Origin: Methylocystis sp. IM3
Lineage (GTDB): Bacteria > Pseudomonadota > Alphaproteobacteria > Rhizobiales > Beijerinckiaceae
NCBI RefSeq assembly: GCF_038070105.1
Contig: NZ_JBBPBZ010000002.1
Location: forward strand, 2,306,001-2,370,000
Length of the DNA stretch: 64,000 nt
Reading direction: 5' to 3'
The notes under the pieces are model-generated. The model had not been told where the DNA came from and did no database searches. It worked only from the letters and a program-made list of their open reading frames with translations. This document shows, one piece after another, positions 15,574 to 34,137 of the stretch (positions are counted from its first letter, which is position 1; every line of letters begins with the position of its first letter). Made by a program: the position numbers and the translations under genes.

Positions 15574-15675
15574 AACCAATGCACGCAAAGGCCATCGCAT
15601 GACGCTCAAACTAGCCCACCTTCTGGCCAAGGATAGGCGCTTACATTGGGGCCTATAGGGCGGTCTGAGTGACAA

Positions 15676-15706: not shown

Positions 15707-15719
15707 ACTTATAAAAAAA

Positions 15720-16669
15720 TTTTCCGCGCAACTTCTGGCGCTGTCGAATTCAGGAGTCGGGTCTGTCGTTCGACATGTTTCTGACGAGTTCGGCGAGCGC
15801 CAGCCGCAGCAAGAGAAGAGCGAAATTGCGAGGCAGCGCCGCAACCTGGCACTTGGTAGAGCAGAAGCGCCCCCGCACGCCCCCGCACGCCCCCGCGTTG
15901 GGGCGTGAAGGACTCGCCGCAATGCTCGCACGCGCGATCAGCGCGCGCTTCAAAGCGAGCGTCAAGCGCCGCATACCGATAGCCTCTTCGAGTGGCCGAT
16001 CATATCAAGTAACAATATTGAGTGGTTTACGGGGATCGTAAACCAACTGCTATCGAATGCTAAGATTAAGGTGAAACGATATTGGCTGATCAATCACGCG
16101 TGACTGATCACTTGTTACCGTTACAAGAGAGCCACCCCTCGCGCGCCTTTCGCCGCCTTTACGGGCGACCGTAAGACGCTCCCCGAGTGGCGCGGATTCC
16201 GACTTGCGGGCGCAAGTCTAAGCTGCTTGGCTTCCGTCTTTTGCGGAATCCACAAGAGAGCCTCGCCCATCCGCGCGACCGAGCGGCGGCCGAATATGGC
16301 CCCCGGCCCGGTGTGAAACACCGCTCTACGGGCTTCCTGTCAGCCCCTCAGTGGGGGCGTGGCGCGGACCACGGCGCGGGCGGCGTGACCGGCCCGTCGA
16401 GTCCCTTGCCAAAAGCCCCCGCCTGCCTCTCAGCGCACGGGCTTGGCGGTTTAGCCGCCTAAGAGCCCGCCGAAGTGACCGCGTGCCGTCTAGCTTACCG
16501 AGGCGTTTTCGGTAGAAAGTAGTCGGGGGCTGATGTTCCCTGTAGGCTTACAAGCAAGGACATCAGAGGACGACTGCCCCGCTGCGTTAACGCGCAAGGT
16601 GTCAAGTTACCGGGAGCTTCCACACCTCCCAACCTCTGTCCGATTTGAGACTGCAAGGATAATGGCACC
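15720..16669. other. Gene-poor stretch with tandem repeat and nested hairpin
   Basis: No supported gene. About 15867-15896 holds three tandem copies of GCCCCCGCAC or close variants. At 16194-16250 an outer stem GGATTCC (16194-16200) / GGAATCC (16244-16250) encloses a perfect inner hairpin GACTTGCG/CGCAAGTC (16201-16218). Near 16442-16460 a further stem of about 8 bp, CTTGGCGG/CCGCCTAAG, occurs. These may be structured RNA or DNA sites. Confidence 0.45.
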
Positions 16670-17035
16670 ATGAGAAAACGGTATGCCGTATTTTTGAGTT
16701 TAGCGATTCTAGGCACCCCGGATGCAGAAGCCGAAGAGGATTTTAACTCAGGAAACTCCTACCTCGAACCTTGTAGGAAAGCCGCCCTCGCCGAACACAT
16801 TCGCGCCGACATCTTCGAAGCGATGAAAATCGGCTACTGTATGGGAACAGTCGAGACCATCCTTTCAGTCAGCCCGTCAGTCGGCGTGTGCGCCCCAAAG
16901 GGCGCAACTAACAGCCAAGCTATAAGGGTTGTCACGCGTTACTTGGACCAACACCCCGAGAAGACCAACGAGGATTTTAGGTTCCTTACGCGAGACGCTT
17001 TGACGGAAGCGTGGCCATGTCGCAACCGGCGGTGA
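16670..17035 (+). CDS. Secreted Rap1a/Tai-like small protein
   Basis: 121 residues. It has a signal peptide (MRKRYAVFLSLAILGTPDAEA) followed by a compact domain with the spacing I associate with Rap1a/Tai family proteins: a GYCMGTVE-type helix, CAPKGATNSQ, VVTRYLDQHPEK, and a C-terminal Cys in AWPC. Family members are periplasmic immunity proteins against type VI amidase effectors, but many homologues are orphan. Here no effector gene lies nearby, so it may be cargo. The start has no strong ribosome-binding site, but the signal peptide fixes it. Confidence 0.55.
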   Translation: MRKRYAVFLSLAILGTPDAEAEEDFNSGNSYLEPCRKAALAEHIRADIFEAMKIGYCMGTVETILSVSPSVGVCAPKGATNSQAIRVVTRYLDQHPEKTNEDFRFLTRDALTEAWPCRNRR

Positions 17036-17239
17036 GCCCTTTTTGGCGCAGCTGCCAGTAGCCCCCTCTGTGCAAACCCGCCTTCGCCTCGCGCCGGGTG
17101 GGCAGGGCGCGGGAGGCCGCAAAGCAAGCTCTCGGCCTCCAAGTTTTCTCCCACACTCCGGGACCGCGCCTCGCATTCGGATGCGCAAGGCGGCCAGCTT
17201 CACATGACGCGCGCCGTGAAGGAATCAACAAACGCGGGC

Positions 17240-17458
17240 TTACTCCGGCGCGAGGGTCTCGACATAGGCCGCGAGCGCATCGACCGTCGCCGCCATTGTC
17301 GCCGCAGCCTGCGTGGTCGGGCGCGGGCCGCCATAGAGCGCGCCGCCCGGCGCTTCGCACGCCTCCGGGCCATCGGCGACGGCCGTAGCGAGGGCGGTTT
17401 GCGCCGCCTGTAGATCGGCGACGAGCGCGTCGGCGGTCGGATAGCCGAAGCTGGCCAT
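17240..17458 (-). CDS. Small hypothetical phage-type protein
   Basis: 72 residues, Ala-rich and helical (starts MASFGYPTADALVADLQAAQ). The ATG at 17458 is preferred over an upstream in-frame one because the upstream segment reads unlike protein. It is the last minus-strand gene of the probable terminase operon (22.2 to 17.2 kb). No family recognised. Confidence 0.45.
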   Translation of the reverse strand: MASFGYPTADALVADLQAAQTALATAVADGPEACEAPGGALYGGPRPTTQAAATMAATVDALAAYVETLAPE

Positions 17459-17530
17459 TTCAGGTTCGCCCTTCGCGGTTGGATTCAAACAACGAAAAAT
17501 GATTGCCCCCGGCTGCGTGGCACCCACCCT

Positions 17531-17731
17531 TTATTTCCACCCATTGCGATGTTTGAGTCCTAACAGCTCGGCGCGCGTGCTTTCGATCATGCTGATCGCT
17601 TGTTCGCGCGAGAGACGCAGCACTTCCGCGTCCTTGTGTAGTTCCTCGATTTCCGCTCTGAGCGAAGTGACAAGCTTCTTGGCCTCGGCAAGCTCCCTGC
17701 GAAGTCCTTCTTCAACTGTCTGATTCTTCAT
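17531..17731 (-). CDS. Small coiled-coil protein
   Basis: 66 residues, almost entirely heptad-like (EEGLRRELAEAKKLVTSLRA, then EIEELHKDAEVLRLSREQAI). Start taken at the ATG 17731; an in-frame ATG at 17758 lacks a ribosome-binding site. Part of the leftward run of small genes after the terminase. Confidence 0.5.
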   Translation of the reverse strand: MKNQTVEEGLRRELAEAKKLVTSLRAEIEELHKDAEVLRLSREQAISMIESTRAELLGLKHRNGWK

Positions 17732-17839
17732 CGCCGCATCCGACTGAGCCCCGCACATTATCTAGCGCGCGGGGCATTCCGCGCGGATTTTATTGTCAGG
17801 TATTTGGTTGAAGTTGCCCCTCACGTGAGCAAGACGCCA

Positions 17840-18049
17840 TTATCGCTCCCGCCCCGTTCCACGCCGCGACTTCCTCGGTCCCGTGACCTTGCCGCCATTG
17901 CGCCCGGCGCTTTCTGCGAGCTTGCGATCCATTGAGAAGGATCGCGATTCCTTCGGAACGCTCTTCCCGCCCTTGCTGGCGATGGCGGCGCGTCGCTCGG
18001 GGCTTATGCACGCAAAGCCGCGTCGCTGTTTTGGTTTCTCCGATTCCAT
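17840..18049 (-). CDS. KGG-repeat (stress/con-10-like) protein
   Basis: 69 residues with two copies of the KGG motif: a first block ISPERRAAIASKGGKSV and a second SAGRNGGKV. This matches the family of Gly/Lys-rich hydrophilic proteins typified by GsiB and con-10, which accumulate under stress. The ATG at 18049 has an AGGATC site upstream. It is an unusual gene to find in a phage-like operon. The C-terminus is basic and may bind nucleic acid. Confidence 0.6.
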   Translation of the reverse strand: MESEKPKQRRGFACISPERRAAIASKGGKSVPKESRSFSMDRKLAESAGRNGGKVTGPRKSRRGTGRER

Positions 18050-18083
18050 GTCATTCGATCCTAGAAAGCGCCCTCTCGCGGAT

Positions 18084-18332
18084 TCAACAAACGGCAATCG
18101 TTGCGGGTTCATCGTCGATTGGCGTTTGTTTTGTGGCGCACAGCATTTCGCGAATATCTTGCGTCACTCGTTTTTCGAATCCTTCGGCAGACTCGCCGGG
18201 CCTTCTTCGCCAAGGAACGCCATCATATTCACAGCACGTAAACTGCGAATGGACGAAGCTTCCTTTCAGCACGGCCGAATCCCTTCGTCGGCGAGTTGCC
18301 CAAAGAAGAATGGCGTGAGCGGTTTCATTCAT
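18084..18332 (-). CDS. Hypothetical small protein
   Basis: 82 residues with an ordered-looking middle (FVHSQFTCCEYDGVPWRRRP) and a helical end. It lies 34 bases before the KGG gene on the same strand, consistent with one transcript. No ribosome-binding site stands out and no family is recognised. Confidence 0.4.
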   Translation of the reverse strand: MNETAHAILLWATRRRRDSAVLKGSFVHSQFTCCEYDGVPWRRRPGESAEGFEKRVTQDIREMLCATKQTPIDDEPATIAVC

Positions 18333-18344
18333 TCACCATGGGGC

Positions 18345-18569
18345 GAGCCCGCGCAAGTGGTGTGTGCGATGCGCGTCCCCCTCGCGCGGGCTCAGACAAG
18401 GCGAGGGGAGATAAACCTCGCATTCGAATTGATCGCCGGGGGAGGAGTCGCGATTTCCCCCGGCGCTTTCCGCCATTCGGGGCGATGCAAAGCGCAGGAG
18501 TGCCGCGGATGGCGAAAGGGAATTGAAGGAGTCGCGAGACGCAACGCATCCAAGAGCGCCCGCGACTCC
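18345..18569. other. Cluster of three long-stem hairpins
   Basis: Between 18332 and 18669 there is no gene. Three inverted repeats follow one another: GAGCCCGCGC (18345-18354) / GCGCGGGCTC (18382-18391), CGCCGGGGGA (18434-18443) / TCCCCCGGCG (18456-18465), and GGAGTCGCG (18528-18536) / CGCGACTCC (18561-18569). All stems are 9-10 bp without mismatch. They could be terminators, a structured RNA, or a packaging or replication site. Confidence 0.6.
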
Positions 18570-18668
18570 CGGCTCGAGCCAAGACCAATGAGGGCGCTGT
18601 TGGTTCCCATGGCCGGGCGCGTCCCGCTCGCGGGAAGAAGGGCAAATCGCAAGCGGGGAGCTTGTTCA

Positions 18669-19481
18669 TTATTCGGCCGTCACTTGTTCTAGTGCCGCGT
18701 CGGTGGCGGAAGCGTCAGAGCGAACGCGAGGCGGAAACAATTCGGTTTTCGTTTCCTCCCCCAACGTTGCATTCGGATCATGGCGCAACGCGCTCCACCA
18801 TTGTTGAACGGCGGCGGCGATTGCATCTTTCTTGTGAGGCGTATTGCGCCGGAAGTAACTGCCCATGATATCTTCTGCGGTCGCCTCCGTGACGACTCTT
18901 GGCATTGTGATTGTGGACGTAGCGCCAGTTCCCCCATAGTAAGGGCCGTCATGGTGCTGAATCGTCTCGGGATTTCGCCGCACTGGGCGCACGGACATGA
19001 AGCCCAATTGCAGGCTCATGTGGCGCACCTCTTGGAGGCGTTCATGGAATTCGACCGCAAGGGTTTCCGCCTCTTGGCAAAAAACAGCCGCCCGTGCTTC
19101 GTCCACGCAAAAATCAGCAAGTTCGGCCGCTTTGCGGGCTTCGACCAATTCGGATTGAAGCACGGTGACTGAATCCGTAACCCCAGCAATCTTTAGGTCG
19201 AGATTATCGCGGCTTATCTTCGCCGCCGCAAAGCCGCTCGGTTCCTCGGTTAGCAGATGGGCGTTCTCTTCGCTTTCAAGCGCCTGCTTTAAAAGGTCGG
19301 CGCGCGCCGTGGCGATTTGCGAATTGAGCGAGTCGAAATCCGCTCGTCTCTCACGCAGCGCCCCCAGCATTTCATTGGCGCGGGCGAGCATGTTTTCGGC
19401 GCTGTGCATAGCGGCGAGCGCCTCGGCGTTGGCTTCGATGGCGGCGGCGAGTTGCTGGCGTGGGTTCTGGTTTGTGCCCAT
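18669..19481 (-). CDS. Hypothetical coiled-coil phage protein
   Basis: 270 residues. The first two thirds are strongly helical coiled coil (for example AIEANAEALAAMHSAENMLA). The C-terminal third has a short ordered part (GPYYGGTGATSTITMPRVV, then EDIMGSYFRRNTPHKKDAIA). A CAGGAG ribosome-binding site lies 8 bases before the ATG. It sits directly after the terminase genes, a place where phages often carry scaffold or head-related genes, but I see no portal or capsid signature. Confidence 0.55.
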   Translation of the reverse strand: MGTNQNPRQQLAAAIEANAEALAAMHSAENMLARANEMLGALRERRADFDSLNSQIATARADLLKQALESEENAHLLTEEPSGFAAAKISRDNLDLKIAGVTDSVTVLQSELVEARKAAELADFCVDEARAAVFCQEAETLAVEFHERLQEVRHMSLQLGFMSVRPVRRNPETIQHHDGPYYGGTGATSTITMPRVVTEATAEDIMGSYFRRNTPHKKDAIAAAVQQWWSALRHDPNATLGEETKTELFPPRVRSDASATDAALEQVTAE

Positions 19482-19545
19482 GGGGGCGACTCCTGTGGCG
19501 GAAGCAATGGTAACAGAACTGTTACCATTGCCCCTCCTTCGTCGA

Positions 19546-20103
19546 TTAGCGATGAATCTGCGCGCTGCGCTCTTTCATGGCGGCGAAGATGCGTTCATTG
19601 CGGGCGATAGCGTCGGCGCGATACGCCTTTTCCTTGGCGGCGTTCTCTTTCGCCAGTCGTGCGGCGTCGCCGGTCGGATTCTTGGCGAGTGATTGCGGTT
19701 CGAAGCGCCCCGCCGTCCTATTTCCCGGCTCATACGAATGCGCGGCGGCTTTCTCCCATTCCGTGCCGCCCATTTGCTTATAGCTCTCCGCGCCCTCTTC
19801 CATGATGCGCGTGCTTTCTTCGCGACGCTGTTCGTTCGTCCACGTCGGGAAATCATGTTCGACCGTCACGCCGTTACCGTCCGTTTCTTTCACGGCGCAA
19901 TGCTTGCTCCCGCCGTTCAAATCGACGATTTCCATTTTTCCTTCGCGGCCCCACAAGAGCGCAATTCCCCGTTTATCGCCTCGAGTGATTGCATCGTTCA
20001 CGCGATTGCAGTCACGCGAATATTGACCGCTGGCGCGGAGTTGAGATTCCAGTTCGAGAGAAGCCGCTTGCAAGGCTTCGATATGTTTGAGGGTATTTGA
20101 CAT
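19546..20103 (-). CDS. Hypothetical phage-type protein
   Basis: 185 residues, hydrophilic, with alternating helical and polar segments and a C-terminal charged helix rich in Ala, Arg and Lys. It starts 29 bases after the large terminase stop with a GAAAGGTCC site, so it is cotranscribed. No conserved motif identified. Confidence 0.5.
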   Translation of the reverse strand: MSNTLKHIEALQAASLELESQLRASGQYSRDCNRVNDAITRGDKRGIALLWGREGKMEIVDLNGGSKHCAVKETDGNGVTVEHDFPTWTNEQRREESTRIMEEGAESYKQMGGTEWEKAAAHSYEPGNRTAGRFEPQSLAKNPTGDAARLAKENAAKEKAYRADAIARNERIFAAMKERSAQIHR

Positions 20104-20132
20104 GGTTGCGGACCTTTCTTGGGATGCTGCGT

Positions 20133-21704
20133 TTACAGGTTGAGAAACCGGTTGGCAGATTCGCCAATCGACGAAGGTTGCTCTTTGAGCGTCGGGATGG
20201 ATGCGGCTTCCGCCTGTTCCCTGCGCGCCTTTCGTTCGGCTTCTTCCCGGATTTGACGTTCTTCAAAATGCGTGGGCTTCACGCCCATGGCGCGCAGATA
20301 TGTGTCGAGCAATACGCCGCCAGCGTCCTCGCGAATGACGGACGCAATGCCAGCAATCACATTGGCGCTGTCGTCGTGGTATGGCCCGTCAGGATGATCA
20401 ACCCTATCGCGACCGCCGAAGCCCGTGCGCCTTTCGAGGTTCACAAGCTCCTGAATCATCTTCTTATCGTCGGGCAAGTCGATCATGCCGGAGTTAATGA
20501 CGCCAAGTAGATTGATATAAAGTTGGCTCTTGTTCTCTTTCACTGGCTCATACGTAACGCCGTTTCGGGACCATAGCTCGCGCACAAGGCCGCTCGCAAA
20601 GTTGTCGCCGAATACGGTCGTCACGCCGTAGGAATGGGCAAGCTGCCATAGCTCGGCGACAACTGCATCAGGGGAGAACTTTGGCGGTATGTTGCGTAGG
20701 CAATCGACGATGCATTTTTCGTCCTGCATATGGCCGATGCAGAAGGCGAAACTATCCGTTCCCGTGCCCGTCGCAGCGTCGGCAAAGGCGGTATATTGGA
20801 CCCCGATTTCCGGCGGGATTTCCTGCAAGCCGGGACAGACGCAGCGCATGACGTTTTCAAGAGAGACGAATGCTGCCCGATCAGAACGCGCTTCCGCCAG
20901 CCACTCGGCGGCGGCTGTAACGGGATCGCGCGCCAGCGCCTTATCTATGACGCTTTGCGGGACGGTTGGATTGAATAGGCGCGTTGCGCCCTTCGCCACG
21001 ATGATGCGAGGGTCGCCGTCCGGCTTGTAATATTTGGTCAGTGCATCGTATTGAAAGCCCCTGCGGCTGTAGGGGCTTCCGATTGTGAATAACTGACCTT
21101 TCGTCGTTACCAATGCGGGGCGAATAGCTTCAACGATTTCAAAGTCGGGATTTGCGCTTTGGTCGTTGCGGAGCATCGCAATTTCGTCGATGCAAGCGAG
21201 CACGACCGACATGCCACGAATGGCGCGGAAGTCGGCGCTGTGAACCTCGATTGACGTATTGTTATTCAGAGTCAGGGTTAGGGCAGTCTCGCCCTCGATC
21301 ATCTTTGCGAGCGTGGGCGACTGGTAGAAGCCTGCGGCGATATAGCGAAAGAGAATCTTCGCTTGTCGTTGGTTCTCCGCGACGATCAGAACGACGCCGC
21401 GCTCGCCAACCGTTAAGCAATCGCGATAATCGCATAAGGCGGAAGCCCATATCGCCAGCGCCGCGACGCCCGACGTTTTACCGGAACGCCTGCCGCCAAT
21501 GATATGGCACTCTTCGGCGCGGGAGGATGGCGCTTCTTCGCGTAGGGTTAGCCGGTTCCAATGTTCGTATTCGGAGTCCGTAAGAGGTTCCCCCTGCGAC
21601 GCCAATAGAACCGCGCGCATGGCTTCGCGGCTCTCGCCGCCCATAAGCGGGGCGAGCAAATGTTCGCTTTCGAGCGCGACGCGGAGCGGGATCGGCGGTC
21701 TCAT
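20133..21704 (-). CDS. Phage terminase large subunit
   Basis: 523 residues with a two-domain terminase layout. ATPase: Walker A GGRRSGKT (70-77), Walker B VVLACIDEIA (167-176). RNase H-like nuclease: FADAATG (from 307), GDNFAS (366-371) and a late acidic motif in GPYHDDSAN (440-448). These provide the metal-binding Asp residues. The enzyme would cut concatemeric DNA and drive it into a procapsid. Its ATG overlaps the stop of the preceding gene (ATGA), which supports that gene as the small subunit. The C-terminus is a charged helix. The gene looks intact. Confidence 0.85.
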   Translation of the reverse strand: MRPPIPLRVALESEHLLAPLMGGESREAMRAVLLASQGEPLTDSEYEHWNRLTLREEAPSSRAEECHIIGGRRSGKTSGVAALAIWASALCDYRDCLTVGERGVVLIVAENQRQAKILFRYIAAGFYQSPTLAKMIEGETALTLTLNNNTSIEVHSADFRAIRGMSVVLACIDEIAMLRNDQSANPDFEIVEAIRPALVTTKGQLFTIGSPYSRRGFQYDALTKYYKPDGDPRIIVAKGATRLFNPTVPQSVIDKALARDPVTAAAEWLAEARSDRAAFVSLENVMRCVCPGLQEIPPEIGVQYTAFADAATGTGTDSFAFCIGHMQDEKCIVDCLRNIPPKFSPDAVVAELWQLAHSYGVTTVFGDNFASGLVRELWSRNGVTYEPVKENKSQLYINLLGVINSGMIDLPDDKKMIQELVNLERRTGFGGRDRVDHPDGPYHDDSANVIAGIASVIREDAGGVLLDTYLRAMGVKPTHFEERQIREEAERKARREQAEAASIPTLKEQPSSIGESANRFLNL

Positions 21705-22219
21705 TCCGCCTCCGCATTGGGCTCAGGAGGGCCGTAGAGCGGCGCGGAGGGGTCCGCCTCTAGGATTGTCGCGGCGCGAGCTTTCGGCGTGTCGGCGAGC
21801 CTCCTAGAGGGCGCGGCGTGCTGGGCGACGATATCACTCAGGCTTGGCGTTATGTCTTTTACCGCTCTGTCTAGGCCAATGGTCTCGGCGATGCGCCGGA
21901 TATGCGAGGACAGGCGGGCGAGCAGGTCAACATCGACCTCGCGTCCGCTGGCGAGGTCCACTTCGAGGCGCTCGGCCTCCACGGTCAATGCCGCGACCCT
22001 GCGAATGAGAGACAGGCGGAGTTCGGACAGGGCGTGGACGCCGCCAGCGTCATCGACATAGGCGCAGACAAGATCGCGGTATCGGCGAGCCCATAGGCTT
22101 CTTCCGTCGATTTCCCCGACGAAGAGAGCGCGCGCGTTGATGCGGCCGGATACACGCGCGTTCGTGACGCGCGAGCGCCCCTTCTTCTTCAAACTTTCTA
22201 ATTGTCCAGCTTGCGGCAT
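21701..22219 (-). CDS. Probable terminase small subunit
   Basis: 172 residues. A basic N-terminus (SLKKKGRSRV) is followed by a helical core (about 50-125) and an Ala/Pro-rich tail. Size, position directly upstream and the 4-base overlap with the large subunit are the main evidence; no clear HTH is seen by eye. Small subunits recognise the packaging start site. Moderate confidence. Confidence 0.6.
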   Translation of the reverse strand: MPQAGQLESLKKKGRSRVTNARVSGRINARALFVGEIDGRSLWARRYRDLVCAYVDDAGGVHALSELRLSLIRRVAALTVEAERLEVDLASGREVDVDLLARLSSHIRRIAETIGLDRAVKDITPSLSDIVAQHAAPSRRLADTPKARAATILEADPSAPLYGPPEPNAEAE

Positions 22220-22394
22220 AGGCAGCTGACTACATGAGAACTATACTATACGCAATGTTATAACGTTACAGATAAAGGCAAGGGGGCGTCCAAGCGTAAC
22301 GTGCGCCCGATCAGGCCCCGCGCCCTAAGCCGCGCGACCTGACTCCCCTGCCATTTGGTCCCCGCCTTGCGTGGGCCAAGGCAGAGGCTACCGG

Positions 22395-22715
22395 CTACTG
22401 AGGACGGCGGTGGACATAACCTAGGTAAAAGGACCGCATGAACACTTCGCCCAAGTTCACGGGGCAGGCTTGATCGTCTAGGCCATTCCCGCCGTCCTCG
22501 TTTGCAAGGAACACGAAGTAGCCGGGGGCCTTCTCACAAGGCGCAAAACAGTCGAACTCATAGGCTTCTTGCATATCCCCATTTATCGAGCGAGCCGCAG
22601 CCTTACAGAGTCGCTCTAGCTTATTGCCATTCGGGGGAGCATCGAGGGTCGCCTCAACATCCGCTATATCGCCGCAGATGCGGTCCGTTTGAGCGTCTAC
22701 GACGATGATACGCAT
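22395..22715 (-). CDS. Hypothetical protein
   Basis: 106 residues from the ATG at 22715 (a TTG at 22736 is also in frame). It has a beta-rich start (MRIIVVDAQTDRICGDIADV) and four further Cys-containing segments (LCKAAAR, FDCFAPCEKAPGYFVFLAN, QACPVN). It lies between the recombinase and terminase genes on the same strand. No family recognised. Confidence 0.5.
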   Translation of the reverse strand: MRIIVVDAQTDRICGDIADVEATLDAPPNGNKLERLCKAAARSINGDMQEAYEFDCFAPCEKAPGYFVFLANEDGGNGLDDQACPVNLGEVFMRSFYLGYVHRRPQ

Positions 22716-22772
22716 GGTCAACGCGCGCTCGCACAAGACACGGCTTGGAGTTTGCCAAAGGTTAACAGGTGG

Positions 22773-23378
22773 TTAAAAGTCGTCAATTGTGGTGGTTACG
22801 GAGGGCCGAGACCAACCTCCCTCCTTTAGGCGTTCTTGGCTAAGCACACGGTAGACGCTCGCAACCCCAATTCCGAGCTGATCGGCGATGTCCTGCTTTG
22901 TTAGGCCCTCGGCGGCGAGGCGGCGAATGTCGGCGGCCTTGGCGCGGGCAGTCGGGGCGCGGCCTTTGTAACGCCCCTCGCCCTTCGCCTTGGCAATTCC
23001 TTCGCGCTGGCGTTCGAGCATAATCTCGCGCTCGAACTGCCCGATAGCGCCGACGACTTGGAGCATGAGCCGCCCGGTCGGGGTCGAAGTGTCGATCCCC
23101 ATGCCGAGAATGCGGAGCGAGACTTTCTTCGCGTTGAGCCGCTCGACAATTTCGAGCAAGTGCCGAACGCTGCGCGCCAGCCGGTCAAGGCGCGTGACGA
23201 CGATCGTATCGCCCTCGCGGGCGAAGTCGATTGCAGCCTCTAATTGCGGGCGAGCACCGACGCTGCTCGTTTGCTCGGCGAAGAGCTTGTCCGCCCCGGC
23301 GACGCGAAGGTCCCGTTCCTGCGCTTCGAGCCCGGCGACTTGTTCCACGGTAGAGGTTCGGGCGTATCCGATCAGCAT
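22773..23378 (-). CDS. Serine recombinase (resolvase/invertase family)
   Basis: 201 residues. The N-terminal catalytic domain starts MLIGYARTSTVEQ with the catalytic Ser in ARTST, followed by DTIVVTRLDRLARS and the dimer helix GRLMLQVVGAIGQFEREIM. The C-terminal DNA-binding HTH is KQDIADQLGIGVASVYRVL. Such enzymes resolve dimers or cointegrates or invert DNA. The ATG at 23378 has an AGGAA site 8 bases upstream, and an in-frame upstream ATG is rejected. It flanks the repeat-rich region at 23.9-24.25 kb, which could hold its site. Confidence 0.88.
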   Translation of the reverse strand: MLIGYARTSTVEQVAGLEAQERDLRVAGADKLFAEQTSSVGARPQLEAAIDFAREGDTIVVTRLDRLARSVRHLLEIVERLNAKKVSLRILGMGIDTSTPTGRLMLQVVGAIGQFEREIMLERQREGIAKAKGEGRYKGRAPTARAKAADIRRLAAEGLTKQDIADQLGIGVASVYRVLSQERLKEGGWSRPSVTTTIDDF

Positions 23379-24397
23379 TGCGTTTCCTATCAATAGGAAC
23401 ATGCACACTGCGATAGTTAGCTATCAAAACTTGAAAATCAATGTGTGTGATAGGTTTTTAGGCGCTCTTGCGCCCCTATCGCATGGGCAAGCTCTATTGA
23501 GAGACATGCGGCGCAAAAGAGGCGGCTCGCCGGAGAGCTAGGCCAACGAGCCGCCAACCGAGCGCGGGCAGTCGGCAGACCCGCAACCGCATCGGTTGGC
23601 TCTATAGGCGCAAGGCGACACGGCGACATTGCGGCGGCGGGCGAGCGCCCGGCCGGGCGGCGAGCGTGCCCCGAGAAAAAATAGGAAGCGACGGCGTGTG
23701 TTTATGCTCGGCAAACCGAGCCCCTACAGCGCCTCGCCGATGCGCCAAACTGGTCGAGAGCTGCTTACCCGCCCCGACCGCTAAAACCGCGCCCACGGGG
23801 CACGGGAAAGGCGAGAAATGCCTTGCGCTGGGTCACCCAAAAACTCTCCGAACGTCGGGTTCCCCATGTCCATACAAGCTAGAACTTGAATTTATACAGC
23901 ACACTGTAACAGCCGCGCCCAAGTAACTCACAAAACCTATGTTTTCTGGGCGTTACAGCAAACGCCGAAAAACGCTTCCAACTTCTTTATGGGAAGTGCA
24001 TATAGACATACAGGCATAGGCGTAAGCATAAACATATCCATCGTAAATCCCCTATGCCCTCTTATCCATCTATGCTGTAACTGCTGTAACTGCTGTAATA
24101 AGGATATAAAAATAAGCGAAAATTGGCGGGCAAATCAGGCGCTTCCGCCAGTCACAGCGCCCCTCTCTCTTTGCTGTTTCGCGGACTTGGCGCTGTAACA
24201 GCCAAAATGCCCAGCAGTTCTGGGCGTTTGCGCTTGATACAGCAAATCGCTAGCGCCAAGACAAAGGCCGAAAGGCGAAACACGAGCGCAGCATTTCGCT
24301 ACCACAAGCGCCGCTATTCTCAACATAAGCTACACTGCTTTTTTTGCGGCTTAGCTTCAAAATATGCTGTTTCCGCCGTCGCGGTCGAGCCTCATGT
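23379..24397. other. 1-kb gene-free region with GCTGTAAC iterons (putative replication origin)
   Basis: No supported gene. The motif GCTGTAA(C) or its complement occurs repeatedly: about 23904 (CTGTAACAG), 23951 (CGTTACAGC), three tandem 9-base copies at 24073-24099 (CTGCTGTAA), 24192 (GCTGTAACAGC, palindromic) and 24238 (ATACAGC). The stretch about 23880-24120 is AT-richer than its surroundings. It lies just downstream of the primase/helicase gene and next to the serine recombinase, the usual place for an origin or resolution site in satellites. Confidence 0.5.
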
Positions 24398-27300
24398 CTA
24401 CCCATCAATACCTCCCGGCAGAGCGTCGGAAAGGTAGAAATTCCCTACAGCTTCCGCTGATCGCGGCTTCCAAACGAGAAACTGAGGCTTCACTTGTTCC
24501 ACGCCTTCATCGTCATATGCCCAGAGTTCCCGCTGATCAGCGCGCCGCCAATATCGTTTGAGCGTGCCGCCACGGGATTGAATGCGGAAGGGTTCGTTCT
24601 CCCATCCAAGTCGTCTCAAAAACGGGCCATATTGCTTCCCATAGACGACCTTTCCGAGCCGATCTTTTAGACAATCAAGAATGGATTCCGGCGGCAGGCA
24701 GACGCCCTTGACCGATTCAAACGGCGAGAGGCACGCGTCCAGCATTTCCTGCCAAGGTTCCGTCAGCAGGTTGGCGTCCTGTTGCACGTTGAACTCGCCT
24801 GCCTGTTCCTCTCGCGTCGGCCAGTAGCGTTCCCCGCTGCGGTAGCGATGATAGGCTTCGGCGAACAACTGCTCGCGATCACGTAGCAGCGCCGGAATAT
24901 CGAATCCCTCGCTCTCAAAGACCCAATCGCGCCTATTGCCCGTAACGTCGCGCAAAGGCTCGTTGTCATTGGTCGTGGAGAAAAAGCAGCATTGGCGCGG
25001 CTGATCGACTTCGCCGCGTCCGAATGGGCGCTGATATTTGTCGATCCGGCGCGTGACGAAAGCGCGGTAATCTTCTAACTCCCCGACCGAAGCGCGTTCC
25101 GACAATTCGACAAGCCAGCGGCCCTTTACATGGAGTCCGAGTTTACGAAGCGCGCCAGCCTCATTGCTGATCTTGGGAAGATTATCAGTGAAGTATTTGT
25201 CTCCCACAAGGGCGCGCCCGGCCTTGCTCTTTTCAAAACCTTGCAAACCCTTGACCGTCAGCACGTAATCCGCCTGACAACCCGGCTCGCTAACGCGGGC
25301 GCACATTTGCATAAGGAACCATGCCCCAATCTTGCGGATATAGGCGCGGTCCCTCTCGGCTTGCTCAGGGTCTTTGGAAACCTTCGCGCCCGCGTAAGTG
25401 AAGAGCCAGTCGTCGAGGCGCGCGACGTCATCCCATACGAGCCCCTGCAACCAGTCACGTATGGGATGATAAGCGTCGAGGCGCGCGGCGTCCTCAATCG
25501 CCTTGCGCGTATTGCTGTCAGAAATCGTCGATAGGCCCTGCGCGTCCGCCTGCAACCAACGCATTGTCTGGGTAATGTCATTCTCTTCGAGCGTGCGCGG
25601 ATACTCGCCGTATGCGTCGCAGCCGGGGATATGCCGAGCAACTTCAACCTCTAGCGTCATTTCGTTGAAGCGAAAGACGCCGCGCATGTCCGGCCGATGC
25701 GTCAGAAGATAGAAAGCGTTGTAGACGTTGCTGATCGGTCCATTTTTACCGAAAACCATGCCAGCGCCCTCGCCGGGTTCTGGGTCTGGTTTTGGCTTGG
25801 GCTTAGGATTTTTCCTGTCATAGGCTTCAAGACGCTTTCTAAGCGTCGTGGCGTCCATATTCCATTGATGCCAGAAGAATTTCCTCTCCTTCGGATCGCC
25901 ACGGTAATTGTCGGACGACTTCGAGAATAGCTCGATAGCTTGATCTTTGAGCGCCGCATATTCCGGGCTCAATTTGTCGAAGCTCTCTGTCTCACGATGC
26001 AGTTTCTCGATCCGCTCGCGGATCATCTGATCGTCGAGTGTGTCCTTGTATCCATGCTCACGCGCAGTCGTGAGGATATATCCAACCGTGGTCGGTCCAT
26101 GTGCGCCGCCACGCGTCGCGTCGAAGCTATCCCATTTGGCTTCGAGAGCGGCGGGGTCGTAATTATCGGCGGTCTGAGACCATTCGTCCCAAAGCTCCAA
26201 TCCAAGGTCGGTCGGCTCTTCGGCGTTCTCCAGCGCCCAATGCAGCGCCATACCGACTTTGAGCCATGTTTCGTAAACGTCGGCGTCGGGAACGAACGTC
26301 AGCGCCTCTTGGAGCTTGCGCCAATCGTCAGAGCAAATGACGGTCTCACGGTCGGGACGCGGCTTTGACGGCTTTGCGAGAGCTTCGAACCATTCGACCG
26401 GCGGCGGCGTGACGAACTCAGCACCATCGAGTCTGACGATGCGCCCGCCCGGAAGCGGATCATGCCTCGCGTCCTCAAAGACCGGCGCAGCCGTATAGAC
26501 GACCGCCTGTGGCTGATAGATCGAAAGATCGACCGGAGCCTTCACATTGGCCAGCCACGCTTTTATCTCAGTAGAGGTTAAGGCGCGATCCATCAGGAAG
26601 AACATGCGGAAGCGCAGTTTTGGCTTGATGCAGTGGCCGCTCGTCGCCTGCGCGATGCAGGCGGCGTTACGCAGGGCGCTTGGCAATTGGGCACGGATAT
26701 GCGCCGCCGCCGCGTTCAAATCCTTAGGATCGGCCCCATCGGGGCAATCAAGCGAGTCCACGTCGAGCGGCAATAGACGCCGGGGAACGTCGCGCAGCGT
26801 TGGCGGATGAACCTCGCCAGTCTTCTTATCCTTGTGTTCTAGTTTGATGCGCCGCATTTTGCTGCGGTCGGTTCCCTCGGCGACAGCGCCAGCGACGAAG
26901 CAGCATCGCGGCTCTTTGTCGAGCAGGCGCAATTCAGCTTCGAGCGCGTCGAGGGAGACAACGTCGATGGTCCGCGCGGAGTAAAGGAACGCGCCGGGCC
27001 TGTTGCCCTTGCCGCCGTAGCTGATCCACTGGCGATCTTTGGTGAATTCCTTGGTTAGAAGCGCCGCCGCCGGAAGGACCGCGCGCAGCACTGTGTAAGA
27101 GTGTGGATGTTCGGTCGGAAGGATAGGATGCGGCTTGCCGTTGACGCCAGCGGTTTGCCCGGCGGGGTCGGGACGCGGCTCTTGTGCTTGCTCTCCGCCA
27201 ACCGCGCCGACCCCGTCGCATGTGTAAGGTCGCGGCGGAACCGCCTTCGCAAACTCCCACGCTTCCCGCCCAACGAACCGGAGAATGACAGCGCCGCCCT

Positions 27301-27424
27301 CTTGGGGCGCGCCTTTCACGGCTGCCAAACGGTCCTGAAAAAATGAGGGACGCAAATGCGCTGTAGCGCCTCTATCGAGGGTCGCGCGCATGTTGCTTTT
27401 TCGAGGGGAAAACCTAATATCCAT
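24398..27424 (-). CDS. Primase-helicase: AEP-like primase, PriCT and VapE domains
   Basis: 1008 residues. Middle N-terminal half: a primase-like domain with RRLLPLDVDSL (DxD, about 216-226) and SGHCIKPKLRFRMFF (262-276). Next a PriCT-2-like linker (about 380-460: YETWLKVGMALHWAL, GLELWDEWS, TVGYILTTAREHG). Then a virulence-associated-E helicase domain (about 560-860) with P-loop GLQGFEKS (726-733), a Walker-B-like GRWLVELSE and sensor TTND. Such fusions start replication of plasmids, prophages and satellites. The P-loop is odd: the usual Gly before Lys is Glu. The ATG at 27424 has a GAGG site 13 bases upstream. It is the largest gene of the element. Confidence 0.8.
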   Translation of the reverse strand: MDIRFSPRKSNMRATLDRGATAHLRPSFFQDRLAAVKGAPQEGGAVILRFVGREAWEFAKAVPPRPYTCDGVGAVGGEQAQEPRPDPAGQTAGVNGKPHPILPTEHPHSYTVLRAVLPAAALLTKEFTKDRQWISYGGKGNRPGAFLYSARTIDVVSLDALEAELRLLDKEPRCCFVAGAVAEGTDRSKMRRIKLEHKDKKTGEVHPPTLRDVPRRLLPLDVDSLDCPDGADPKDLNAAAAHIRAQLPSALRNAACIAQATSGHCIKPKLRFRMFFLMDRALTSTEIKAWLANVKAPVDLSIYQPQAVVYTAAPVFEDARHDPLPGGRIVRLDGAEFVTPPPVEWFEALAKPSKPRPDRETVICSDDWRKLQEALTFVPDADVYETWLKVGMALHWALENAEEPTDLGLELWDEWSQTADNYDPAALEAKWDSFDATRGGAHGPTTVGYILTTAREHGYKDTLDDQMIRERIEKLHRETESFDKLSPEYAALKDQAIELFSKSSDNYRGDPKERKFFWHQWNMDATTLRKRLEAYDRKNPKPKPKPDPEPGEGAGMVFGKNGPISNVYNAFYLLTHRPDMRGVFRFNEMTLEVEVARHIPGCDAYGEYPRTLEENDITQTMRWLQADAQGLSTISDSNTRKAIEDAARLDAYHPIRDWLQGLVWDDVARLDDWLFTYAGAKVSKDPEQAERDRAYIRKIGAWFLMQMCARVSEPGCQADYVLTVKGLQGFEKSKAGRALVGDKYFTDNLPKISNEAGALRKLGLHVKGRWLVELSERASVGELEDYRAFVTRRIDKYQRPFGRGEVDQPRQCCFFSTTNDNEPLRDVTGNRRDWVFESEGFDIPALLRDREQLFAEAYHRYRSGERYWPTREEQAGEFNVQQDANLLTEPWQEMLDACLSPFESVKGVCLPPESILDCLKDRLGKVVYGKQYGPFLRRLGWENEPFRIQSRGGTLKRYWRRADQRELWAYDDEGVEQVKPQFLVWKPRSAEAVGNFYLSDALPGGIDG

Positions 27425-27538
27425 CGGTCATAATCCTCTACATCGCTACCGAAGGCGTCTGGCTTCCGACCGGACGCCTTCATTCGTTTGTGGGAGAGCG
27501 TCGGCCGCCGCAGGGTCCGCCGACGCCCGGTGCGCTTA

Positions 27539-27760
27539 TTACGCCGTCGCGGCGATCGGCTCGCGCACGACAGCGGCGAGCTCGGCCCGATGCTCGGGGC
27601 TTCCGAGCACGAGTTTCGCCATGGCCGCGATCAAGTCATTCCGACATAGATCAAGCTCTTGCGCCGCCGCGTCGATACGGTCGGCGTCGGCTGGGAGAAG
27701 ACGGGTCGAAAACGTGATCCGCGCTGGCGCTCGGCGGCGCATCCTCTTGGGCGTTTGCAT
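27539..27760 (-). CDS. Ribbon-helix-helix (CopG-like) protein
   Basis: 73 residues. A basic N-terminus (MQTPKRMRRRAPARI) is followed by ITFSTRLLPADADRIDAAAQ and helix ELDLCRNDLIAAMAKLVL, a beta-alpha-alpha pattern typical of ribbon-helix-helix DNA-binding proteins. Start taken at ATG 27760 after GGGAG; an upstream TTG is in frame. Its place between integrase and primase suggests a repressor or copy-control role for the element (inference). Confidence 0.6.
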   Translation of the reverse strand: MQTPKRMRRRAPARITFSTRLLPADADRIDAAAQELDLCRNDLIAAMAKLVLGSPEHRAELAAVVREPIAATA

Positions 27761-28071
27761 GGAGCGTGGACTCCCTGCGGGGTTATACCTACCCGCCAAT
27801 AGTTCGCGCAGGGTCGCGTCTTCGACAAGCGCAAAAGAACCGCTCAGTATAATAAAATTCAGTTAAGCCAAAGGTATAAAGCCATTATGCTTCTGTTAAA
27901 CGCCGTTAATTGCTTAATTAATTACTCTATTGCATTTAAAACAATGAGTTTTCGCTTAAATTCGATGCGATTGCGTTTGTTACGAATGACTCGATCTCTA
28001 ACTTCTATTCGTGAATTCGTTCGATCGATCGCCGCATGCGAACTACAAGAGAGCGAATAGACAAAAGAAAA
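27761..28071. other. AT-rich regulatory region before the ribbon-helix-helix/primase genes
   Basis: No gene. The stretch 27845-28020 is the most AT-rich of the element (for example TAATTGCTTAATTAATTAC near 27908) and contains a TCGTTCGATCGATCG palindromic patch near 28020. It is the likely promoter/operator region for the leftward genes and could contain binding sites for the ribbon-helix-helix protein. Confidence 0.45.
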
Positions 28072-28099
28072 AAGCCACGCATCCTTCGATACGTGGCTT
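28072..28099 (-). terminator. Rho-independent terminator of the integrase gene
   Basis: Stem AAGCCACG (28072-28079) / CGTGGCTT (28092-28099). On the minus strand the hairpin is followed by TTTTTTCTTTTG, as expected downstream of the integrase stop at 28168. Confidence 0.8.
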
Positions 28100-28167
28100 G
28101 TGATGCTGGAGTTCGTTTAATGAAGTAGCGAGTTCGTGAAGTTTGCTACCGCATTTCGCGGTTTCCG

Positions 28168-29163
28168 TTAGAGCAGCCGCAACTTCTTCGCAACATCAGC
28201 TGATCGCAAATGAGTGTAGCGGAATAGCATCCTCGGGTCGCGATGGCCGCTGATAAGGCCCACCTCTGGGACCGACAGCCCCTGCTCGAAAAAGCGGCTG
28301 ATGGCTTCATGCCTAAGGTCGTGGAAACGAAGGTCCATGACCCCTGCCCTCCTCTTGACGCGTTCCCAAGCCAACCTCAGGCTGTTCGCTGAGATTGGGA
28401 AGATGATGTCTCCTTCCCCTCGCTGGAATTCCAACAGCACAGAAAGAGCCTGTGGAGACAGAGGCACGGAACGAGGATGGCCGTTCTTCGTCATCGGAAG
28501 AAACGCAATCCCCGCCTCAATGTCTACGTTGGCCCACGTCAGCGACAGGACTTCGCCGCGTCGCATCCCCGTGGCGAGCGCAAACAGAAAGGCGGGCTTT
28601 ACCCACGGATTGCGACACTTGCCCAAGGCAGTGCGCAAGGCGGCAAGCTCGTCATCGTTGAGCCTACGCTGTCTTGGTGCTCCCGGAGAAGGCTTCTTTA
28701 TCGGTGTGGGCGCGATGGAGTGACCCCATTCTTCGCGGGCAACTTTCAACGCGTGTTGAACTATGCCAAGCTCACGGTTGACGGTCCCGGACGATACGAC
28801 CCGCAGCCGGTCGTCCCGGTAGCGAGCCAAGGCGACTGAGGTAAACTCTGACAGCGGAGTGTCGGCGATTTCGTGCCTCAGAACGGCCCTTAGGTGGAAG
28901 TCTTCTATAGGCCCCGCCGAGCGTTTGGCGGGCAACACGTCCCGCTGGTAGCGGCCAAGAACATCACTGAGGGTAGGAATGATAGTCCCTGAGGCCACCT
29001 TAGCGTTGCCTGAGCTTATCAGTTCGCCCCGGTCAATGCTTAACTCCCGCTCTCTGGCCCACCTGAGCGCATCCTCTTTTAGGTGGAATGTCTTGGAGAG
29101 GTTGTGTCCTTCGCGCCTTACCTGAACCTGCCATTTTGACCCGCGTTTACGCAAAGTCGCCAT
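28168..29163 (-). CDS. Tyrosine integrase of the element
   Basis: 331 residues. An N-terminal AP2-like/core-binding part (MATLRKRGSKWQVQVRREGH onward) is followed by a catalytic domain with the Arg of ATGMRRGEVLSLTW, HDLRHEAISRF (HxxR), SGHRDPRM (His) and the nucleophile Tyr in MLFRYTHL. It recombines the tRNA-Val site. The ATG at 29163 has a GGAG ribosome-binding site 7 bases upstream and is preferred over one at 29256. The gene points away from the repeat that starts 100 bases upstream. Confidence 0.92.
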   Translation of the reverse strand: MATLRKRGSKWQVQVRREGHNLSKTFHLKEDALRWARERELSIDRGELISSGNAKVASGTIIPTLSDVLGRYQRDVLPAKRSAGPIEDFHLRAVLRHEIADTPLSEFTSVALARYRDDRLRVVSSGTVNRELGIVQHALKVAREEWGHSIAPTPIKKPSPGAPRQRRLNDDELAALRTALGKCRNPWVKPAFLFALATGMRRGEVLSLTWANVDIEAGIAFLPMTKNGHPRSVPLSPQALSVLLEFQRGEGDIIFPISANSLRLAWERVKRRAGVMDLRFHDLRHEAISRFFEQGLSVPEVGLISGHRDPRMLFRYTHLRSADVAKKLRLL

Positions 29164-29264
29164 CTGTCGCTCCGTCGTTGTGACAAGGGCGTGACAGACT
29201 GAAAAGATGGAGGTGTTCTTGCTTCGGTGGCGACTAAGAAACTTTTTCTCGATCAACCACTTAG

Positions 29265-29408
<144 letters not shown>

Positions 29409-29630
29409 AGCGCCTTTGTGACCAAAAAATCATTCGCGCGCCCGAGAGCCGGAAAACCGGCCTTCTCTGCGCCCGCGCCGCGGCGAGATCGGGGAATAGT
29501 GAAGAGCCTTTGGCGCCGCGACGAAAGATTTGTGACAGGCGCGACGATTCGTGCCTTGCAGGCGGCTGAGGATGTGTCATGCTTGGCCGTGCCGCTCCTC
29601 GCAGGAGGGGGGTAACAAAGGAGGTTCCGC

Positions 29631-29810
29631 ATGTCCTTGCAGGGTCATATCGTCGAACTCCAACGCCGCCACGAGGCGCTCGAGAAGGAAATCGAAAAAG
29701 AGCAGCTCCATCCCAACGCCGACGACACAAAGATCATCGAGCTCAAGCGGAAAAAGCTGCAAATCAAGGACGAACTGGCCAAGTTGGCGATAAGCGAAAC
29801 GCGCCATTAA
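29631..29810 (+). CDS. YdcH-like (DUF465) small helical protein
   Basis: 59 residues (MSLQGHIVELQRRHEALEKE, then IEKEQLHPNADDTKIIELKR, KKLQIKDELAKL). This is the DUF465/YdcH pattern: two helices forming an antiparallel hairpin with a KRKKLxLKDE motif. Function unknown. The ribosome-binding site AAAGGAGG is near-perfect, and a strong terminator follows at 29859. A second copy of the family is at 31445. Confidence 0.8.
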   Translation: MSLQGHIVELQRRHEALEKEIEKEQLHPNADDTKIIELKRKKLQIKDELAKLAISETRH

Positions 29811-29858
29811 GCGGCGTTCCTGGTCATCGGGGCTTTCAAGACAAGACGTCTCGATATA

Positions 29859-29886
29859 GGCGGAGGGTTCTCCGCCTTATTTTTTT
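29859..29886 (+). terminator. Rho-independent terminator
   Basis: GGCGGAG (29859-29865) / CTCCGCC (29870-29876) with a tight GGTT loop, then TTATTTTTTTT. It follows the first YdcH-like gene. Confidence 0.9.
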
Positions 29887-29934
29887 GGCGCGCTCCCCGC
29901 CTCAGCCGGCGGAAGCCCGTAGCGAGACTGCTTG

Positions 29935-31362
29935 ATGCCGCTTACCGAAAGCTACTGCCCCGAAACCCTGCACGAGAGCCTGGGCGACCCCTTCTTCGAC
30001 CGGGTCGAAGCCGCCCCCTTCCCCCAGACCATCCTGCGCTACCGGAACCAGCGCTGGGCGGCGCGCGTCGGTCTCGACGGATTGACCGACGCGGAATGGA
30101 TCGCTCATTTTGGACGCTTCGAGCCGCTGCCGGGCAGCCTCCCGCAGCCGCTCGCCCTGCGCTACCACGGCCATCAGTTCCGCGTTTACAATCCAGAACT
30201 GGGCGACGGCCGGGGATTTCTCTTCGCTCAGCTGCGCGACAGGCTGGACGGACGGCTGCTCGATCTTGGCACCAAGGGTAGCGGCCAGACTCCCTGGTCG
30301 CGGCGCGGGGACGGGCGCCTCACGCTCAAAGGCGGCGTGCGGGAAATACTGGCGACGGAAATGCTGGAGGCGCTCGGGGTCGACACCTCCAAGACCTTCA
30401 GCCTGATCGAAACCGGCGAGGCGCTGATTCGCGGCGACGAGCCCTCTCCCACGCGCTCGAGCGTCCTCGTGCGGCTCTCGCATTCGCATATTCGCATCGG
30501 CACGTTCCAGCGCCTCGCCTTCCATGACGACAAGCCGGCGATCGAGCGGCTGCTGGAATATGTCTGCCGCCATTACTTCCCGGCGCTCGCTGCGCTCCCG
30601 CCAGCGGACAAGGCGCGCGCCTTCCTCGATGAAGTCGCGGCGCGCGTGGCTCGGCTCGGAGCCGGCTATATGGCGGCCGGCTTCGTCCACGGCGTGCTGA
30701 ACTCCGACAACATCAACATCACCGGGGAGAGCTTCGACTATGGCCCCTGGCGCTTCGCCCCGACCTATGATCCGCACTTCACCGCAGCATATTTCGACGA
30801 GGTCGGGCTCTATTCCTTCGGCCGCCAGCCGAGCGCGCTGGCGTGGAATCTGGCGCGACTCGCGGAATGCCTGCTGCACCTTACCGGCCTGGAGGCCGCG
30901 CAGGAGATACTCGACGGCTTCGCTCTCGCGATACAAAAGGCGTTCCGCGACGCCCTGCTCCGCCGCCTGGCTTTGACCCCGGCCGGAGAGGACGCCGATG
31001 CGCGCCTCTCCAAGGCGTTCACGGATTTCCTTCTGGCGTCGCGCGCGCCTTTCGAGCAGGCGTTCTTCGACTGGCGCGGCGGGCTGGCCAGCGCCGCGCG
31101 CGCCAAGGCCAGCCCCGCGGCCGACTTTTATGAGGCGCCGGAATTCGGCCCGGTGCGTGACGCCCTCGCCGAGCACGAGACAGCGGCCGACGCGCGGCTG
31201 GATCACCCCTATTTCCGCCGCCCGGCGCCCTGCACCATGCTCATCGACGAGGTCGAAGCCATCTGGAGCCCGATCGCGGAGGCGAACGACTGGTCGGCGC
31301 TCGAGCGAAAGCTTTCGGAGATTGCAGACATGCGCGAAGCCTACGGCTTCGCCTCGACCTGA
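29935..31362 (+). CDS. selO: Protein adenylyltransferase SelO
   Basis: 475 residues. It matches the SelO/YdiU pseudokinase family: YHGHQFRVYNPELGDGRG, DLGTKGSGQTPWSRRGDGRL with the nucleotide-binding Lys, LSHSHIRIGTFQRLA, GFVHGVLNSDNINITGESFD and DYGPWRF. SelO transfers AMP from ATP to Ser/Thr/Tyr of redox proteins and helps oxidative-stress resistance. The enzyme is complete. Start at ATG 29935; a TTG at 29932 is adjacent and equally readable. It may be cotranscribed with the following YdcH-like gene. Confidence 0.93.
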   Translation: MPLTESYCPETLHESLGDPFFDRVEAAPFPQTILRYRNQRWAARVGLDGLTDAEWIAHFGRFEPLPGSLPQPLALRYHGHQFRVYNPELGDGRGFLFAQLRDRLDGRLLDLGTKGSGQTPWSRRGDGRLTLKGGVREILATEMLEALGVDTSKTFSLIETGEALIRGDEPSPTRSSVLVRLSHSHIRIGTFQRLAFHDDKPAIERLLEYVCRHYFPALAALPPADKARAFLDEVAARVARLGAGYMAAGFVHGVLNSDNINITGESFDYGPWRFAPTYDPHFTAAYFDEVGLYSFGRQPSALAWNLARLAECLLHLTGLEAAQEILDGFALAIQKAFRDALLRRLALTPAGEDADARLSKAFTDFLLASRAPFEQAFFDWRGGLASAARAKASPAADFYEAPEFGPVRDALAEHETAADARLDHPYFRRPAPCTMLIDEVEAIWSPIAEANDWSALERKLSEIADMREAYGFAST

Positions 31363-34135: not shown

Positions 34136-34137
34136 CC

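Follow-up and report, generated by a model that had tools for sequence, protein, structure and literature searches.

Is a mobile element that carries a complete DNA-packaging motor and no recognizable shell a phage satellite, or is it what remains of a prophage after its late genes were deleted? The question is raised by a 64,000-nucleotide stretch of the Methylocystis sp. IM3 genome (contig NZ_JBBPBZ010000002.1, positions 2,306,001–2,370,000; referred to below as the window), in which genes for an integrase, a primase-helicase and a terminase lie together. A sequence-only reading had suggested a satellite, with a simple late-gene deletion in a prophage as its rival. Our analysis supports the former, and we infer the satellite life cycle itself from sequence: the element is probably an integrative phage satellite that has its own terminase and would borrow the proheads and tails of a helper phage. 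We put the probability of this interpretation at about 0.78. A simple late-gene deletion is unlikely. The terminase is under purifying selection across a family of short, mostly tRNA-bounded elements in which no capsid gene was detected. The main features of the element are as follows.

11420–11563: distal attachment (att) copy, a complete tRNA-Val(GAC) gene at 11421–11495 (minus strand) plus 68 bp upstream; exact repeat and tRNA call
18669–19481, minus strand: helical coiled-coil protein of 270 aa, encoded two genes after terL; protein family and predicted model
19546–20103, minus strand: 185-aa protein, first gene after terL; protein family and low-confidence model
20133–21704, minus strand: terminase large subunit (TerL), 523 aa, catalytic residues present; phrog_2, 2.3e-21
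21701–22219, minus strand: presumed terminase small subunit (TerS), 172 aa; assigned by position
23900–24200: origin-like cluster of CTGTAAC / CTGTAACAG repeats; repeat counts
24398–27424, minus strand: PriCT-2 primase/VapE-like helicase, 1008 aa; PriCT_2 3e-15, VapE 2e-49
28168–29256, minus strand (an ATG start would give 29163): tyrosine integrase beside the att copy; PF00589, 1.9e-26
29265–29408: integrase-side att copy, a complete tRNA-Val(GAC) gene at 29266–29340 (minus strand) plus 68 bp upstream; exact repeat and tRNA call

The element is an exact insertion of 17,845 bp (window positions 11420–29408) in a tRNA-Val(GAC) gene, flanked by identical copies of 144 bp. Genome G476, from the same species, aligns to window positions 1–11563 at 99.6% and to 29265–39051 at 99.4%. 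The two alignments overlap by exactly 144 bp and G476 holds a single copy of the repeat, which is a clean empty site; the insertion is therefore exact and its ends are precise. The extent of 17240–29163 given by the sequence-only reading covers only the gene-rich part. The element in fact ends at the two tRNA-Val(GAC) copies, which adds 5.7 kb of gene-poor DNA on its left side. The repeat, consisting of the whole tRNA and 68 bp upstream, is longer than the 36–54 bp repeats of ten other elements with a related TerL. With its integrase, its 144-bp att repeat and an empty site in a relative, the element has the integration functions of its own and the defined att site that are expected of a satellite.

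A search with TerL turned up 17 loci, counting the window, across 11 of the 150 related genomes (18 rows, as one gene is split); the element is therefore not a lone deletion. A second, related element sits in a tRNA-Thr gene of the host genome, and its TerL is 48% identical to that of the window. A search with a 14-row TerL alignment gave matches at E ≤ 1e-30 in 11 of 397 genomes of the order and in eight of 141 genera (its own included), and IMG/VR yielded 89 confirmed TerL relatives, 80 of which were used. Most neighbourhoods have the order integrase, replication genes, TerS, TerL and small genes; two loci in G021 share the order terS, terL, 185-aa gene and 270-aa gene (identities for the last two genes 34 and 54%, 47 and 58%). 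Direct repeats were found in 11 of the 16 regions scanned (G018, on a contig of 11.9 kb, was left out and G016c ends at a contig end). Each overlaps a tRNA gene (Val, Glu, Thr, Asn, Arg, Lys or Gln), and the 11 repeat-bounded elements span 7,871–20,271 bp. The recurrence of the gene set in other genomes, proposed earlier as a check, is thus borne out: short TerS/TerL elements occur across the genus, the family and the order, and most of them also have an integrase and a replication gene.

TerL is recognized by the PHROG family phrog_2 at 2.3e-21, its Pfam match being below the cut-off, which agrees with the claim of a full large terminase at this position. In the alignment of 14 of the 18 rows (leaving out G005, with an internal stop, both halves of G010 and the partial G026) the invariant residues include Gly71, Arg72, Arg73, Gly75 and Lys76, which we take to be the Walker A motif, Asp173 and Glu174, presumably Walker B, and Asp309, Asp367, Asp444 and Asp445, which we take to be nuclease residues. 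The ratios of nonsynonymous to synonymous substitution rates (dN/dS) of TerL in seven pairs are 0.12, 0.27, 0.19, 0.08, 0.05, 0.17 and 0.21; four of the dS values exceed 1, so these ratios are rough. In G010 terL is split by an insert that holds a 270-aa gene on the opposite strand (L051:432–1244). The presumed terS overlaps terL by 4 bp, is kept beside terL and is 69% identical to a second copy in the same genome. It has no PHROG or Pfam family match, and a single scan of 14 members of its family and 20 other proteins gave no small-terminase family among the matches listed (25 of 33 families).

The claim that portal, capsid and tail genes are absent also holds in the searches made here. Neither the ten main proteins of the window element, compared with Pfam and PHROGs, nor its locus, compared with 20 known virion proteins from the data set itself, gave such a match; the sole 'head and packaging' row besides TerL is a chance-level helix-turn-helix match of the recombinase (0.032). 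The same 20 queries gave no major capsid or head-protease match at any of the 17 loci. Other virion genes are patchy: a portal at three loci (G021c, G026 and G031), a neck gene at four (G000b, G076, G010 and G026) and a tape measure at two (G016a and G076), with none of the three at ten of the 17, two of which (G016c and G018) are cut by contig ends. Of the element proteins of at least 100 aa, 124 were left once the clusters of integrases, terminases and recombinases and two primase clusters had been set aside, and a PHROG scan of 120 of them (57 + 63) placed the portal family phrog_145 and neck and tape-measure families among the matches listed, and no capsid family (best 25 of 70 and 25 of 55 families). 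The capsid family phrog_10 occurs in 31 of 39 genomes of the genus, and among the matches listed none lies inside the 15 loci of the genus (G070 and G076 are from other genera). The virion gene set is incomplete, as in a satellite, and the portal, major capsid and tail of a complete prophage were not found in the element.

The two genes that follow terL had been named as places where a capsid or portal fold might lie hidden. Structure searches with the predicted models found nothing that scored meaningfully as a portal or capsid for either protein, the 185-aa model itself being poor (predicted template-modelling score, pTM, of 0.27). AlphaFold predicts a long helical hairpin for the 270-aa protein, with a predicted local distance difference test (pLDDT) of 76, and gives a low-confidence model with a pLDDT of 71 for the 185-aa protein. 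The families of the two proteins have 17 and 32 members, respectively, the window's own being counted in both, and all are unnamed or hypothetical except for one labelled as a chromosome segregation ATPase. Compared with G021b, dN/dS is 0.12 for the 270-aa gene, with dS saturated, and 0.26 for the 185-aa gene, with a dS of 1.4. From position and shape we would guess at a scaffold or adaptor role for both proteins. A structural module at 11.6–17.2 kb was also considered and rejected: in comparisons with the called proteins of the fetched loci this stretch gave just the 164-aa family described below and one weak 53-aa match.

The same tRNA-Val site is occupied in other genomes. Islands of 12.0–15.2 kb lie between tRNA copies in G031, G010, G005, G006 and G016 (L205, L206, L207, L208 and L211). 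All five have an integrase, and none matches the 20 virion queries (E ≤ 1e-4) or this TerL. Occupation of the site elsewhere by a full prophage was accordingly rejected, and no full-length prophage with the same ends, which the sequence-only reading had held to be decisive against a satellite, was seen among these five islands.

A tree was calculated for 95 TerL sequences longer than 350 aa, from one similarity cluster and with one sequence per region; G021a (called open reading frame short) and G010 (split) are absent from it. The window TerL, which has a long end branch of 1.14, falls in an eight-row clade with a Shimodaira–Hasegawa-like approximate likelihood-ratio (SH-aLRT) support of 100. 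Its clade members are about 45–50% identical to it, and a portal or capsid was detected beside none of the eight (G018 and G016c being cut by contig ends). This clade is nested in a 20-row clade (SH-aLRT 99), 18 rows of which have no detected portal or capsid. Because TerL is under purifying selection and the clade is without a detected portal or capsid, a recent late-gene deletion does not explain the family.

Among the relatives in IMG/VR, further virion genes were found: a head protease in L060 and L064, a protease and capsid in L068 and L072, a tail chaperone and tape measure in L055, and a portal in L105 and, by similarity, in L077. Since some of these short relatives carry other head and tail genes, the family is a mosaic of which the window branch is the terminase-only end. 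Pieces are exchanged within it: G016a and G019b, whose TerLs are 50% identical, share 86% identity in the second gene after terL. Three of the 80 IMG/VR contigs checked, L058 (9,819 bp), L059 (9,398 bp) and L068 (9,545 bp), have exact terminal repeats of 114, 60 and 123 bp, respectively, as the assembly of circular or concatemeric DNA would give. In L058 and L059 an integrase, TerS, TerL and a 132-aa gene were found and neither a portal nor a capsid was detected; the 132-aa gene of L058 matches a neck family, and this contig also has an O-like replication gene and a tape-measure-like open reading frame. L068 carries TerL, a tape measure, a capsid and a protease.

A decaying prophage, the late genes of a once complete temperate phage having been lost and terS–terL left behind as a functionless remnant, would account for the patchy portal, neck and tape-measure genes of the sister elements, as these are what deletion could leave, for the gene-poor left end and for the damage to two of the 17 TerLs (an internal stop in G005 and the split in two in G010). 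We nevertheless consider it improbable. Short elements of the same build recur at many tRNA sites in several genera, and the window element has precise ends and a full-length integrase open reading frame. Its TerL is intact, the motifs are invariant in 14 copies and dN/dS is well below 1 in all seven pairs; the clade TerLs have diverged to the identities given above, yet neither capsid nor portal was detected beside any of them. Packaging in the particles of resident partial elements or of a cluster resembling a gene transfer agent (GTA), rather than in those of an incoming phage, is suggested by the presence in the host of a GTA-like cluster and of two other regions with capsid genes and no recognized TerL. 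The heads of Rhodobacter-type GTAs hold only about 4 kb, far below the 17.8 kb of this element, and a limited scan recognized no portal in the partial elements, which makes this route very improbable.

We see an equally slim chance that the terminase has been domesticated, TerS–TerL acting as a decoy that blocks the packaging of an invader and the element serving chiefly as a defence island that is moved in some other way. Defence genes do occur in sister elements: one in G016 (L027:11609–16932) has a distal Gabija pair (GajA 5e-275, GajB 3e-251) and a third gene, and another (L037) a distal OLD/AriA-like ATPase. Defence cargo of this kind has been reported in known satellites too, and so fits the satellite interpretation as well, and interference with the helper phage is given as a feature of phage-inducible chromosomal islands (PICIs) in the portion of PMC6092414 available to us. 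However, TerL has kept both its ATPase motif and its nuclease residues, which is beyond the need of a decoy, and the element comes with an integrase and a replication module of its own.

Several observations weigh against the satellite interpretation. No packaging site was identified in the element. The earlier assignment of a small terminase stands in so far as there is a gene beside terL, its identity as TerS coming from position and not from a family match. The gene-poor left 5.7 kb could mean partial decay. In the wider family no integrase was recognized in G005 and a weak partial one in G021c, and in five of the 16 regions scanned, one of them at a contig end, no bounding repeats were found. 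The terminal repeats of the three IMG/VR contigs are a sign of circular or redundant DNA and do not demonstrate packaging. As for a helper, none is known: in a set of 50,697 phage records the top-ranked TerL match has just 24% identity, and in the host genome the phrog_2 TerLs beyond those of the two elements are that of the GTA-like cluster and a single weak match. In G016 the island at this tRNA-Val has a closely related integrase (1.2e-122), a related recombinase, two full tRNA copies of 77–78 bp and no TerL; since a related integrase is found there without TerL, integration and terminase are not strictly linked.

If the element is a satellite, its cycle may be pictured as follows. During the growth of a helper phage in the cell the integrase would excise the element, and the primase-helicase would start its replication at the CTGTAAC repeats. 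The packaging site of the element would be recognized by its own TerS, and its own TerL would dock on the portal of helper proheads and fill them with satellite DNA, the helper supplying the prohead, the tail and lysis. The two genes after terL might, at a guess, adapt the prohead or the portal–motor contact.

More tentatively, the Alphaproteobacteria may host a large and old group of satellites, each with a different incomplete piece of the head–tail gene set, which swap pieces among themselves. The piece sets could then be terminase only, as in the window element, terminase with a portal, with a neck or tape measure, or with a protease and capsid, and a capsid and tape measure without terminase. 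Since complementary terminase-bearing and capsid-bearing elements occur in one genome, they may be co-mobilized, or each may override one step of the helper.

Our comparison with known systems is limited to the available portions of the cited papers. The element resembles the PICIs, including the Staphylococcus aureus pathogenicity islands (SaPIs), in having an integrase at one end, a specific att site and a primase-type replication gene followed by an origin, and a small terminase is present in some of them (PMC6092414). It differs in its complete large terminase and in lying in Alphaproteobacteria; PICIs sometimes carry a TerS homologue (PMC6092414), at most the small terminase; the sequence-only reading had remarked that a full large terminase in addition to the small one is unusual for classic PICIs. 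No AlpA-like or Stl/Rpr-like regulator was recognized in the window element, where the 86-aa candidate has no Pfam family and the small open reading frames were partly scanned; the sister element in G026 has a weak HTH_17 match below the cut-off. Capsid-forming PICIs (cf-PICIs) have both terminase subunits together with a capsid, protease, portal and connectors (PMC10690885). The window element likewise carries terL and, by position, terS, and its tails would also come from the helper (PMC10690885, PMC10803314), but no capsid, protease, portal or connector, the virion genes that mark a cf-PICI, was recognized in it. Three sister elements differ from cf-PICIs in having a portal, one of them with a neck gene too, without a capsid match.

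The Streptomyces satellites MulchRoom and MiniFlayer also have their own small and large terminase, but they carry a portal, capsid and scaffold and no primase as described in the available text, the reverse of what is found here (PMC10690885). Pseudomonas AH14b is a 16.8-kb integrated element with an integrase and primase that uses the capsids of another phage; it differs in that the portion of the report available shows no recognized terminase gene (PMC4936722). Phage-inducible chromosomal minimalist islands (PICMIs) are likewise small integrative satellites of reduced gene content, but they carry AlpA and Fis and are tied to the fis gene, and the word 'terminase' is absent from the main text of the paper (PMC10803314). 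VEIMEs and tycheposons are named as well in the literature available. In the literature available, known satellites either borrow the motor of the helper (P4 and PICIs) or bring both motor and shell (cf-PICIs and the Streptomyces satellites). A literature search, from which most subscription papers were absent, showed no satellite with both terminase subunits and no capsid among the records listed. What appears to be new here, judged from the gene content, is the whole terminase without a shell; the satellite as such is of an already known kind. If the interpretation is correct, the packaging motor can be swapped against a foreign portal, which would make the rules of motor–portal matching testable, and satellites would be added to the methanotrophs and Hyphomicrobiales, where the same search showed none. 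The patchy portal, neck and tape-measure genes suggest intermediates between terminase-only and capsid-forming satellites.

Read from right to left on the minus strand, the genes of the element are the integrase, the 86-aa gene, the PriCT-2/VapE gene, the repeats, a serine recombinase, a 113-aa open reading frame, the presumed TerS, TerL, the 185-aa and 270-aa genes and then small open reading frames, one of which has a KGG motif; a Rap1a-like protein and a 164-aa protein are encoded on the plus strand. The domain matches listed above confirm the predicted integrase, with a full-length open reading frame, and the primase/VapE helicase. The origin-like repeats are likewise present: CTGTAAC occurs eight times in the window, five of them within 23701–24500, a clustering with p of about 2e-8 for a stretch that was chosen post hoc and is AT-richer. 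A replication protein with adjacent origin-like repeats, of putative origin function, is the arrangement of a PICI-type replication module. The gene set proposed at the outset was correct for the integrase, primase and TerL, and it omitted the serine recombinase. Its 'small DNA-binding regulator' exists as an open reading frame; that identity gained no independent support, as the protein has no Pfam family and just a 0.03 match to a PHROG of unknown function. The remaining features are as follows.

14034–15575: gene-poor distal segment common to other elements; DNA alignment
15079–15573, plus strand: 164-aa protein; homologues in other mobile elements
16670–17035, plus strand: 121-aa Rap1a-like protein; PF18602, 3e-13
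17240–17527, minus strand: 95-aa open reading frame; coding-like score, the fetched TerL loci giving no match
17531–17758, minus strand: 75-aa open reading frame; coding-like score
17840–18112, minus strand: 90-aa protein with a KGG motif (PF10685); related proteins in other regions of the host genome and in sister element G021a
22773–23408, minus strand: serine recombinase/invertase; PF00239, 2.2e-39
27539–27799, minus strand: 86-aa small protein, putatively a regulator; no Pfam family

The 164-aa protein has a homologue of 65% identity in G021b and two in further regions of its own genome (79 and 42%). The segment 14034–15575 is matched at 85.6% over 1,565 columns by a tRNA-Glu element elsewhere in the host genome (G000:C2, near 2.4085 Mb) and is also found in G476:C73; parts of it occur in the G021 sister element at 73–81%.

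That tRNA-Glu element (C2 2,398,596–2,421,703; L242/L243) is 23.1 kb long, has a 46-bp repeat and is without a TerL of this family. It encodes a 1002-aa protein partly similar to the VapE protein, and its integrase shares 87% identity with the G021b integrase; what it has in common with the window element is the 1,565 distal columns and the 164-aa protein (79%). A likely element of 16.3 kb (C2 1,890,630–1,906,922; L237/L238), with a 15-bp repeat at the end of a tRNA-Pro gene, carries an integrase, a primase-like gene, a major capsid gene and a tape measure, with no recognized terminase, and thus complements the window element within one genome. A complete prophage did not come to light in the host genome, in a search that did not cover every capsid or terminase type. 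A further region (C2:531000–554000; L235/L236), in which no att repeat was found, has an integrase, a primase, a capsid gene, KGG proteins and a protein of the 164-aa family. The GTA-like cluster (C2:711000–735000; L240/L241) has a capsid gene at 724361, a protease-like gene, a 1294-aa protein and a TerL at 733991; its capsid family is the one found in 31 of 39 genomes of the genus, hits that need not all be GTA. A phrog_10 capsid match also lies at C2:2160969–2162243, about 16 kb outside the second TerL element and past its tRNA-Thr.

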